A stretch of 64,000 nucleotides of DNA, from NCBI RefSeq assembly GCF_026241105.1, contig NZ_JAPFFT010000002.1, positions 186,001 through 250,000 on the forward strand, in the 5' to 3' direction. Below are positions 34,930 through 37,868 of this stretch, in pieces (the first letter of the stretch is position 1; every line of letters begins with the position of its first letter). A model generated the notes under the pieces. It was not told the DNA's origin. It saw nothing but the letters and a program-made list of their open reading frames with translations, and did no database searches. A program made the translations under genes and the position numbers. This DNA comes from Arthrobacter rhizophilus. Its GTDB lineage: Bacteria; Actinomycetota; Actinomycetes; Actinomycetales; Micrococcaceae.

Positions 34930-34994
34930 ATAGGGTCAGCCGCTGCGCGCCCGTTTTCCCATTGCTGGGATGGGTTTCGCAGCGGCTGCCCACC

Positions 34995-35028
34995 GAACCG
35001 GACGTGCGACTTTCACCGCATCCGGCTC
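34995..35028 (-). ncRNA. Group II intron domain V
   Basis: A 34-base hairpin, GAGCCGGATGCGGTG closing on CGCACGTCCGGTTC with a GAAA-type loop and two-base bulge. It is the catalytic core of the intron RNA, 12 bases downstream of the RT ORF stop. Confidence 0.85.
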
Positions 35029-35039
35029 TCCATGCGCCA

Positions 35040-36560
35040 TTACCCGATGGGCATCGGGGCATTATCGGGCGTGAGCGTCCACGGGGTAGGGATGCGCGCT
35101 CCGCGGTAGCGGTAGCGTTCGACCGTGACCGTTGCGGCCCCGGTGAAATGCACTCCGTTGGATGCGTACCGCCATCCCCGGTCGCAGAACCTGCGCCGGA
35201 TTTGGTGTCCGTTCATCCGCCCGTGTTTACGCTGCAACCATTTCCAGATCCGGCCCCACGTGTAAAAGTCGATACCGCTGAAGACTTTCTTGGAGACCCC
35301 GTGCCGGAAATAGTTTGCCCACCCTGTCAGGATTCGATTGATCCTCTTCAAGAGGTCCTCGAACTCCCAGTGCAGGGCCGACCTGTGGCAGGTTTGGCCG
35401 ATCGTCGATCGCACTGTCTTGATCGATTTCTTGGACGGGATCGTGTAGACGAAGAACTTGTCCCGCGTTCCTCGTTTCCGCATCCTGCGAATGTTGAATC
35501 CGAGGAAATCGAATCCCTCCTCGATCGTGACGACCCGGGTCTTTTCTTCCGACAGCTCCAACCCCAGCGGGGCAAGGATTGTCGCGACCTGATCCTTCAA
35601 CGCCAGCGCGTGGGCTTGTGATCCGTTGATGACGCAGACGAAATCGTCTGCATAACGGATCAATTTCCACGGCGCGCCACCGTTTCGGATCAGCCGCTGC
35701 CGGTGGTGCCACGTGTCGATGTCCCTCGCCCACGCCTTGACGGCGTGCTCGTCCAGAACATGCAACGCGATGTTAGCCAGCAGCGGGGAGAGAATCCCGC
35801 CCTGTGGAGTGCCGGACTTGGATCCGATCGGTTGACCGTCTCGGGTCATGATCCCGGCTTTGAGAAACGCCCTGACCAGTGCCAGGACTTTCTTATCGCC
35901 TACCCTTTGGCGCATTTGGCCCATCAACGCGGTGTGATCGATCTGGTCGAAACACGCCTTGATATCGGCCTCCAGCACCGTCACATAACCACGGCTGGTC
36001 ATGTGCTGGATTTCCGCGATCGCGTCCTGAGCCCGTCGAAACGGCCGAAAACCGTATGAGCACGGATGGAAATCCGCCTCAAAAATAGGTTCCAGAACCA
36101 ACTTCAGCGAGGCCTGCACCACCCGGTCGGCAAGTGTTGGGATACCCAGTTGCCTGAGTTTCCCGTTCGCCTTCGGAATCTCAACGCGGCGCACCGGCAC
36201 CGGCCGAAACTCCCCGGACTTCACCAACGACCGGATACCGCCAAGGAATTCATCCACTCCCACCCAGAACTGAATTGTCGCTTTCGTGACTTCATCGATC
36301 CCGGGAGTGTGCGCGCCCTTGTTGCCCGCGACACGTTGCCACGCCACAAGCAAGAAATCAGGGTCGTGCACCAGGTTGAACAGGTCGTCAAACCTCAGGC
36401 CAGAATCGCCTCCGGCCCACCGATGTAGTTTCGTCTGCATCCGCTGTACTTTCATCTGGGCACCATCGATTCGCGCCCACATGTCCTCACTGGTATTCAC
36501 CGGTGAACCTCCAACCATTACAACAACTCCGCTACCTGACACACTGCCGCCCTTCGCCAT
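35040..36560 (-). CDS. ltrA: Group II intron reverse transcriptase/maturase
   Basis: A 506-residue intron-encoded protein. RT motifs run in order: IPKANGKLRQLGIPTLADRV, FHPCSYGFRPFRRAQDAI, EADIKACFDQIDHTALM, GTPQGGILSPLLANIALH, the catalytic IRYADDFVCV, and LGLELSEEKTRVVTIEEGFD, FLGFNIRR. Domain X (maturase) follows with ILTGWANYFRHGVSKKVF, then a GIIM-type end (WKWLQRKHGRMNGHQIRRRF). No HNH endonuclease is present. The ATG at 36518 (MVGGSPVNTSEDMWARIDGA) is an equally plausible start. It helps splicing and retrohoming of its intron. Confidence 0.95.
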   Translation of the reverse strand: MAKGGSVSGSGVVVMVGGSPVNTSEDMWARIDGAQMKVQRMQTKLHRWAGGDSGLRFDDLFNLVHDPDFLLVAWQRVAGNKGAHTPGIDEVTKATIQFWVGVDEFLGGIRSLVKSGEFRPVPVRRVEIPKANGKLRQLGIPTLADRVVQASLKLVLEPIFEADFHPCSYGFRPFRRAQDAIAEIQHMTSRGYVTVLEADIKACFDQIDHTALMGQMRQRVGDKKVLALVRAFLKAGIMTRDGQPIGSKSGTPQGGILSPLLANIALHVLDEHAVKAWARDIDTWHHRQRLIRNGGAPWKLIRYADDFVCVINGSQAHALALKDQVATILAPLGLELSEEKTRVVTIEEGFDFLGFNIRRMRKRGTRDKFFVYTIPSKKSIKTVRSTIGQTCHRSALHWEFEDLLKRINRILTGWANYFRHGVSKKVFSGIDFYTWGRIWKWLQRKHGRMNGHQIRRRFCDRGWRYASNGVHFTGAATVTVERYRYRGARIPTPWTLTPDNAPMPIG

Positions 36561-37104
36561 GTGGCCGGCTTTCCCGGCCTCGGACTACTACGGCGGCTCT
36601 GCCCCGGATGCGCCCTTCGACAGGCATCGCATCTATCCGCCAACTCGTTCGGAGTCAACGGAGCGGAACGCCTCCGGTTCCCACGCTCACTTGCATTCGA
36701 TCAACGAGTTAGGCACCCGGCTTTACCCCTGCGGCATCATCACGGCTACGCCGTAGCCCTTGACCGTGATCTCCCGGCCCCAGCAGGTGAGACCGAACCG
36801 GGAGTTCCCCGACGGCACATCGGCCAGCGGGTACGCACCGCCCACCTGCCCTTATTCCCTTGATTTGAGCAGGCCTGAAATTCAAGAGGCGTAACAACAC
36901 CGGTTCCTCGCGTATACCTTCTCGTCTCGCTCACCGGACCCGGCCCATCAAGGAATCCTGAACCGTCCCGACTTTGTCACGGCTGCTCCCACCCTCACCA
37001 CCAATCCGTGGATCAGGCTGCCGTCAGCTTCAGCCAGCAACTACGATTGCCAGCCGACGAAGGCCTTCCACCTCCATTCGAACTACAAGCGCCTCGTGGC
37101 GCAC

Positions 37105-37868
37105 CACCGTTATTCAGACAGTCCCAGCCAGCGTAGCGGGCGTTACTTTCGGACACTGCTGAGGCCCACCGCGCCGCGGCTGTAATTTCGAGTCCGGTAA
37201 GGCGGGAAAGGATGGCTGGCGGAAGGAGTCCCGCCAACGAGGTCAGGGCTCCTGACCGAGTAGTCTCCGGTTTGATACCGATCGATCTAAGACGCATGTT
37301 GATCGCTTGGGGTGAAGGAGCTCGACCTGGCCTGGTTCCCGGAAAAAGCCATTCCTCATCGTTGACAGAGCCGAATATGCGTGCCGCGTCACGTGCGGCA
37401 AGGGCGAGTTGCGCAACGTCTCCGACTTCTTTCGGCAAGGCGCTTCCTAGCTTGATGATGACCGTTTCAGCTTTGCTGAAGAGATCCAGCACGCGGAGCT
37501 CGGCGATGCGTGCGGGCCGGATGCCATACGGCAGAACCAACGCGGCGGCCAGTTTTGTGCGTGGATTCAGTGAGTTTGATGAAAGTGCGCGTGAGAGCTG
37601 ATCCAAGCGCTCCTTCCCATCGTTTCCTCCGATGGTGAGTCGTGAGCGCATGAGCGCGTGAGCGCGTGACCGGCGGGGCCGTAAGGGCTTTGGCATGCCG
37701 GTTTAGCCTTGCCCATTCGAGAAATGCTCTGATGAGCCTTCGGTCGGCTTTCCCAGCTGCGAGCCAGCGGTCGACATCCGCTTGTGTAAGGGACCCCAGA
37801 CTACGTCCCTGGTCGTGCGCCCACACCAGCAGGTTGATGACGCGTCTGAACTCTCGTTTCCGTCCGTT
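37105..37868 (-). pseudogene. Tyrosine recombinase-like protein, truncated, frameshifted and intron-interrupted
   Basis: On the minus strand one frame gives FRRVINLLVWAHDQGRSLGS, LTQADVDRWLAAGKADRRLI, RAFLEWARLNRHAKALTAPP, and after a frame change near 37660 another gives ERLDQLSRALSSNSLNPRTK, LAAALVLPYGIRPARIAELR, VLDLF, GVWLFPG-like EEWLFPGTRPGRAPSPQAIN and LLPPAILSRLTGLEITAAAR. This follows the core-binding plus catalytic layout of actinobacterial recombinase-like proteins. The N-terminus is cut at 37868 by a propeller fragment and the C-terminus by the intron at 37104. Whether splicing restores a useful end is unclear. Confidence 0.6.

Follow-up and report, generated by a model that had tools for sequence, protein, structure and literature searches.

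The window analysed here, a stretch of 64,000 nucleotides (nt) from Arthrobacter rhizophilus (contig NZ_JAPFFT010000002.1, positions 186,001 to 250,000), carries on its reverse strand a group II intron together with the remains of a tyrosine recombinase gene. We consider it very probable that this complete, endonuclease-less (En-less) intron homed into an IS256-type insertion sequence (IS), at the inner edge of the left terminal inverted repeat (TIR), and was guided there by its own exon-binding sites EBS2 and EBS1, which would pair with the intron-binding sites IBS2 and IBS1 of the 5′ exon. Judged from the sequence, the immediate host of the intron is this TIR, which abuts the recombinase, and not the recombinase gene in which a first-pass annotation of the same DNA had placed it. 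The features discussed below are collected in Table 1.

The terminal repeat and the intron behind it

The 21 nt preceding the intron are, letter for letter, the left TIR of IS256-type elements that stand uninterrupted in other genomes of the genus. When the joined flanks of the intron were compared with 206 genus genomes, 98 matched some part of them; contiguous matches covered the last 20-25 nt of the 5′ exon, and several continued across the exon junction. Eleven such loci were read, each showing a mobile element with GGGACTGTCTGAATAACGGTG or a variant of it as its outer end and a different sequence in front. An inverted copy of the TIR (15-18 of 21 letters) is found about 1.34 kb inward in five of the eleven, such as GGGACTGTCCGATAAACGGTG in L112, L114 and L115; of the other six, four run into a contig end and two have no inverted copy. 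The transposases of two intron-free elements, checked in Pfam, matched Transposase_mut at 4e-135 and 1.5e-123.

A degenerate TIR pattern found matches in 75 of the 206 genomes, our own included, and its reversed control found one match in one genome. Among 30 pattern loci that were listed, the repeat is followed inward in 22 by an IS256-type transposase match, which starts at a distance of 2 to 127 nt. At loci with the exact 21 nt of the window the transposase lies just inside in 14 of 15 and always in the sense direction, which identifies the repeat of the window as a left end; GGGACTATCTCATTAACGGTG is a common right-end TIR, with the transposase antisense in 5 of 5 loci. The intron is oriented in the direction of the transposase gene. 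About 32 nt of the IS256 element are left in the window, namely the 21-nt TIR and the first 11 inner bases, which match those of the intron-free element L109.

The ends of the intron, GTGCG...AT, agree with the 5′ GUGYG and 3′ AY of group II introns. Its 5′ boundary is common to homologous introns (GTG in 29 and TTG in four of the 33 aligned), and its 3′ boundary is that given by Rfam; joins made by the same rule in relatives lying within transposase genes keep the frame. Rfam Intron_gpII matches positions 34930-35030 (-) with 64.3 bits, its gathering score being 40. For the last 107 nt the predicted fold (-60.7 kcal/mol, z -6.3; 0 of 200 shuffles as good) shows a canonical domain V and a domain VI in which a single A, 7 nt before the 3′ end, is left unpaired. 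The intron-encoded protein (IEP) reaches 384 bits with TIGR04416 (cut-off 300) and its open reading frame has no internal stop; YADD lies at residue 303. A Pfam search at E up to 0.01 finds RVT_1 and GIIM only, with no HNH endonuclease domain. The IEP is 49-60% identical to 20 actinobacterial IEPs, and its nearest solved structure by sequence is 6me0, which we take to be a IIB maturase. All of this points to a structurally complete En-less group II intron, possibly still functional. The first-pass annotation had recognised the 5′ end, the reverse transcriptase (RT)/maturase with YADD, domains V and VI, the 3′ end and the lack of HNH, and on each of these it was right; its span of 34930-37868 holds for 34930-37104, the remaining 37105-37868 not being intron.

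Table 1. Positions of the intron, its putative pairing elements and the neighbouring features (numbering of the window).
Feature	Position	Strand	Remarks
Complete group II intron	34930..37104	-	2175 nt; starts GTGCGCC, ends CTGACCCTAT
IEP	35040..36560	-	506 amino acids (aa); RT (YADD) and maturase X domain
Domain V	34997..35030	-	34 nt; Rfam and fold
Domain VI	34930..34996	-	predicted bulged branch-point A at 34936, 7 nt from intron 3′ end
EBS2, TTCAGGC (predicted)	36873..36879	-	intron nt 226-232; pairs GTCTGAA at -15..-9 of 5′ exon
EBS1, CACC (predicted)	36786..36789	-	intron nt 316-319; pairs GGTG at -4..-1
5′ exon, left TIR of IS256-type element	37105..37125	-	GGGACTGTCTGAATAACGGTG; carries IBS2 (37113-37119) and IBS1 (37105-37108)
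3′ exon, first inner nt of the same IS end	34919..34929	-	TATCTGGCTCG; as in intron-free element L109
Tyrosine recombinase remnant	37127..37862	-	two frames (37862 to about 37683; 37639-37127)
Start of another repeated element, cutting off the IS256 remnant	34828..34910	-	about 20 nt past the intron

Target recognition and further copies at similar sites

In order to locate the pairing elements we used the 5′ exon of 33 related introns together with their first 650 nt, the matches beginning at intron nt 1 to 4; L003, L004, L006, L007, L009, L031 and L035 (other fetches or parts of included copies) and L029 (a near-duplicate of L016) were left out of this set. Exon hexamers were then compared with every intron column in 22 representatives, after exclusion of the lineage of the window itself (L001, L002, L027), of the near-duplicates L016, L017, L019, L030, L034, L071 and L085, and of L021 (91 nt matched); the close sets L014/L018, L081/L082, L080/L084 and L010/L012/L028 were kept. 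Exon positions -14 to -9 covary with one place in the intron (z 8.5, nt 225 of our intron), taken as EBS2, and the last 6 exon nt with another single place (z 5.4, nt 316), taken as EBS1, against a z of at most 2.8 for a control exon window. EBS1 lies in a predicted hairpin loop, although that stretch, taken as a whole, does not fold better than shuffled sequence (z -0.2). The folding suggested by the first-pass annotation gave canonical domains V and VI. An initial candidate for EBS1, TGTTGTTA close to intron nt 200 (the complement of TAACGGTG), was discarded: the stretch is conserved despite quite different exons, and in the unbiased scan EBS1 falls at nt 316.

In the window EBS2 can pair with 7 nt of the TIR if the register may shift by one or two nt. 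With the same shifts allowed for random sites, 0.7% of these equal it, and 0.4% equal the sum of EBS1 and EBS2. Pairing with the 5′ exon at 37105 had been set beforehand, in the first-pass annotation, as a test of its intron; EBS2 pairs there with a shift, and EBS1 weakly. In duplex energies the EBS2 of the window intron (own1), of the copy in genome G461 and of the intron in locus L074 each bind their own exon best of seven. Those of a remnant elsewhere in our genome (own2) and of the copy in a congener (G139) tie on each other's exon (-5.0 kcal/mol, the next at -4.6). Since all paired bases of the 5′ exon belong to the TIR, the intron would read a sequence that the IS presumably must keep in order to transpose.

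The count of copies proposed in the first-pass annotation gave one full copy in this genome and one 256-nt 5′ remnant (own2), 93% identical and 47.5 kb away on the same contig. Altogether four further copies or remnants follow IS256-like TIRs. Two of them were found by homology alone: own2, which follows GGGAGAGTCTCATCAACAGTG, and the G139 copy, which follows GGGATTCCTCATTAACGGTG. The other two, in genomes of other genera, come from a pattern search of 395 genomes of the family that required AAC(A/G)GTG before the intron: G425 follows GGGACTGTACTTTCAACGGTG, which in L165 forms the left end of an IS256-type element; G461 follows GGGTCTGTCAATTTAACGGTG. Compared, with one gap allowed, with a list of eight TIRs from such IS256-type elements, which includes the repeat of G425 itself, the exon of the window matches at 21, own2 at 16, G139 at 18, G425 at 21 and G461 at 16 of 21 letters; random 21-mers of the window reach 16 of 21 at a rate of 1e-5. 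Own1, own2 and G139 lie at unrelated places, all after GGGA...AACRGTG. In a tree of 5′-end DNA (L021 and L030 left out) these three group together (96/93), and G461 groups instead with L011 (96/93), so that the TIR habit seems to have arisen twice. The IEP trees (21 and 22 rows) included only loci whose RT frame is long.

The own2 remnant (L003:3460-3560) and the G461 copy (L158, upstream side of the intron) were seen by eye to adjoin a similar stretch with agctggctatcagtaaat, probably the end of a further IS. A full unit of TIR, intron and IS256 transposase was present neither among the matches listed from the 206 genus genomes and, by pattern, the 395 family genomes, nor in 20 of 35 plasmid records, where matches start at the first base of the intron or a few nt from it. 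An IEP scan of the genome contigs gave six distant loci only (33-43% identity). In phages and viral contigs a search for the intron or its junction yielded nothing useful, with short matches in three records and zero in further searches.

Mechanism, alternative readings and the adjoining recombinase

Reverse splicing guided by EBS2 and EBS1 would have brought the intron to the inner edge of the TIR in the direction of the transposase. Splicing, retrohoming, use of the replication fork and joint movement of intron and IS are steps that we infer, insertion at the fork being reasonable by analogy with RmInt1-type introns. The TIR would be an apt target: every intact IS copy has one, the transposase presumably needs it, and it is located just outside the reading frame. 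An insertion at its inner edge would interrupt neither the terminal 21 bp nor the reading frame of the transposase. The IS itself stands inserted at the very end of a decaying recombinase gene, and either of the two insertions may have come first.

Several points weigh against this proposal. The EBS1-IBS1 pairing has only 4 pairs in the window, as good as 10% of random sites, and 3 pairs in G461 (by eye). In the strict register of the alignment the EBS2 of the window scores only 2, equalled by 19% of random sites (2.9% for EBS1 and EBS2 together), a poor score that is due to an extra nucleotide in its EBS2 loop. The EBS2 of own2 and G139 gives -3.1 kcal/mol with the common right-end TIR and -4.1 kcal/mol with the left one, so that either end may have been their target. 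The four other TIR copies are remnants or cut by contig ends; own2, G139 and G461 fit the known TIRs imperfectly, G425 retains only about 32 nt of intron, and because AAC(A/G)GTG was required by the pattern, G425 and G461 are independent evidence in the outer part of the repeat only. On the side of the IS, 8 of the 30 listed pattern loci have no transposase match, no transposase remnant was found in the window (best E 0.067), and with the element cut to about 32 nt its right end and target duplication are not visible. Finally, a search of this genome turned up no vacant TIR.

In fact the TIR pattern occurs in this genome at the two occupied sites only, its transposase matches are either a fragment (74% over 149 residues, with one stop) or distant, and the three transposase loci read hold no TIR-like 21-mer above 15 of 21. 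Thus, this intron copy looks stranded. The first-pass annotation had regarded the intron as younger than the gene around it and still possibly mobile; the single full copy, the 93% remnant and the two occupied TIRs give no sign of recent movement. The chance that the intron is dead, and reached the recombinase gene only as a passenger of the IS256 element, is a serious one, if clearly short of even: with the single full copy go remnants diverged by 5-7% and a genome devoid of the vacant target pattern. On the other side the open reading frame, domain V, domain VI and the EBS2 pairing are intact, which speaks for capability and is no proof of activity.

It is rather unlikely, in our opinion, that the intron has no special preference for TIRs and enters any site with a matching IBS, the IS256 ends being chance cases of landing in mobile DNA. 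Relatives do insert into the transposase genes of several IS families, and one of them, L010, is poorly paired and outside any recognised IS; however, all three homology-found copies follow the same GGGA...AACRGTG at their unrelated places, and the second lineage of G461 lies at the same kind of site, though it was found by pattern.

The recombinase remnant reaches PF00589 of Pfam below the cut-off only (18.5 against 27.1 bits). It can be aligned with five homologous stop-to-stop frames (576-697 aa), and the first matched residue, 317 to 432, indicates that the N-terminal part is missing; a decaying, frameshifted recombinase had been described correctly in the first-pass annotation. The best homologue alignment ends at residue 610 of 615. 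On the window the match ends at 37127 and the TIR begins at 37125, with one base between them; the IS256-type element lies at the last codons of the already truncated, frameshifted recombinase. That the intron instead interrupts the recombinase gene, whose last codons splicing would restore, is highly improbable: the recombinase frame does extend to the intron and the joined flanks give an open tail of ten residues followed by a stop, but the best homologue ends five residues past the matched part, the tail is shared by none of the homologues read (29 loci), and the 21 nt before the intron are a TIR with exact, intron-free copies in many genomes. The intron inside a dead integrase, as first annotated, therefore gives way to an intron behind an IS end.

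Where one recombinase frame gives way to the other, at 37640-37680, there is a run of 8-base repeats (TCACGCGC, by eye), likely the site of a slippage frameshift. Upstream of the remnant, a propeller fragment had been thought to cut the gene; Pfam finds no family at E up to 1 in 37868-38059 (+). On the other side of the intron, pieces of the element that begins at 34828-34910 recur across the genus, several at contig ends.

Relatives in insertion sequences and comparison with known introns

The wider clade is found repeatedly in and at IS elements. A separate lineage of the same genus (L014, L017, L018, L019, L030 and L071) occupies one and the same codon of an IS30-type transposase, GHWEGDL/IIG (the slash marks the insertion point), next to a catalytic motif; the joined frame reads through in L014, L017, L030 and L071, and L018 and L019 have the 5′ exon motif of these insertions. 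Genome G096 holds two IS30-site copies in two different elements. L011 is inserted in an ISL3 transposase gene (family named by eye), the frame being open after the join, and L077, L078, L079, L083 and L085 lie in transposase genes of IS110, IS1380, IS3 and IS5 according to the annotation of neighbouring coding sequences and the frame across the junction. L010, mentioned above, lies just after a hairpin and T-rich sequence (L010:1441-1500, by eye), has poor EBS pairing and is perhaps an ectopic insertion.

The intron of a Streptomyces hirsutus plasmid (L074), whose IEP is 58% identical to ours, is located 24 nt inside the end of an IS1182 element with an open transposase frame downstream. Four intron-free copies share these 24 nt with few differences and are alike beyond the junction, with different sequence outside, and on this ground we call it the left end; the inverted right end is only weakly matched (11 of 14). 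In L012 an IS110-like frame lies about 80 nt downstream (Pfam 28.3 bits, cut-off 29), and the 5′ exons of L016 and L012 are the same by eye. L008, just upstream of an IS110-like start codon and antisense to it (by eye), was not counted, the frame having no Pfam family.

These cases allow a broader view, which we regard as less likely than not: the inner edge of an IS end may be a recurrent niche, colonised several times by En-less introns (apparently twice at IS256, at IS1182, perhaps in an IS110 leader, and independently at ISRm17 in Sinorhizobium), with EBS2 tracking the TIR and with IS and intron movable as one unit. If the proposal made here is true, the intron parasitises an IS end and not a recombinase gene; in the broader view it would be tied to a sequence that the IS cannot alter without giving up its own mobility, and, with TIR and transposase left uninterrupted, the two could travel together. 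Together with RmInt2, the intron suggests that unrelated introns repeatedly pick the one part of a transposon that is both multicopy and constrained.

PMC3522654 describes the targeting of IS elements as a strategy in wide use among group II introns, and for targeting of an IS end RmInt2 of Sinorhizobium meliloti (class D, En-less) is a precedent. On plasmid pRmeGR4c we find five group II RT frames of 484 aa and four of 439 aa, all nine being 35-36% identical to the IEP of the window. Because a review gives five copies of RmInt1 and four of RmInt2 there, we take the 484-aa frames as RmInt1 and the 439-aa frames as RmInt2. The four RmInt2-type copies have about 16 nt of 5′ exon in common, ending in tccata. 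Of these copies, L178 and L180 occupy one IS end along the transposase direction and L179 the other end against it; L177 shares the same exon. The target transposase has DUF772 and DDE_Tnp_1, so that the target IS is not IS256, which is of the Mutator type; the IEP of RmInt2-type copies is 36% identical to that of the window. The same two domains are found in the IS1182 transposase of L074 (L074:4789-6519) and in the RmInt2-type target transposase (L178:2-1225). RmInt1, taken as above, has an IEP 35% identical to ours, and its host ISRm2011-2 belongs to the IS630 family. According to PMC5894124, RmInt1 blocks the spread of ISRm2011-2; the intron at a TIR edge raises the question whether here the IS may instead jump and carry the intron with it.

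Among closer relatives, the intron of plasmid pRHL2 of Rhodococcus jostii RHA1 (L078) has an IEP 50% identical to ours and EBS1 and EBS2 at aligned places, and differs in that its joined flanks keep the frame of an annotated IS1380 transposase open. It may be Rh.js.I1, an intron named by Toro and Martinez-Abarca (2013), whose variety g1 takes in Rh.js.I1 and Ca.ac.I1. The Streptomyces hirsutus intron is likewise inside an IS left end upstream of the transposase, and differs in the IS1182 family and in its EBS sequences. Group IIC introns, which insert at terminators and attC sites (PMC4424553, PMC7923331), resemble the window intron in being En-less, in a short EBS1 pairing and in non-coding targets; they are described without evidence of EBS2-IBS2 and with an upstream stem-loop, whereas EBS2 is the stronger pairing of the window intron. 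An assignment to group IIC was therefore rejected, EBS2 having been found and a scan for terminator-like structures finding none in the 5′ exon. Among the papers listed from the literature searched, whose coverage leaves most subscription journals outside, nothing was found on IS256 ends as targets of group II introns. Thus, the principle is already known, and what is new is the intron lineage, the IS family and the repeated occurrence.

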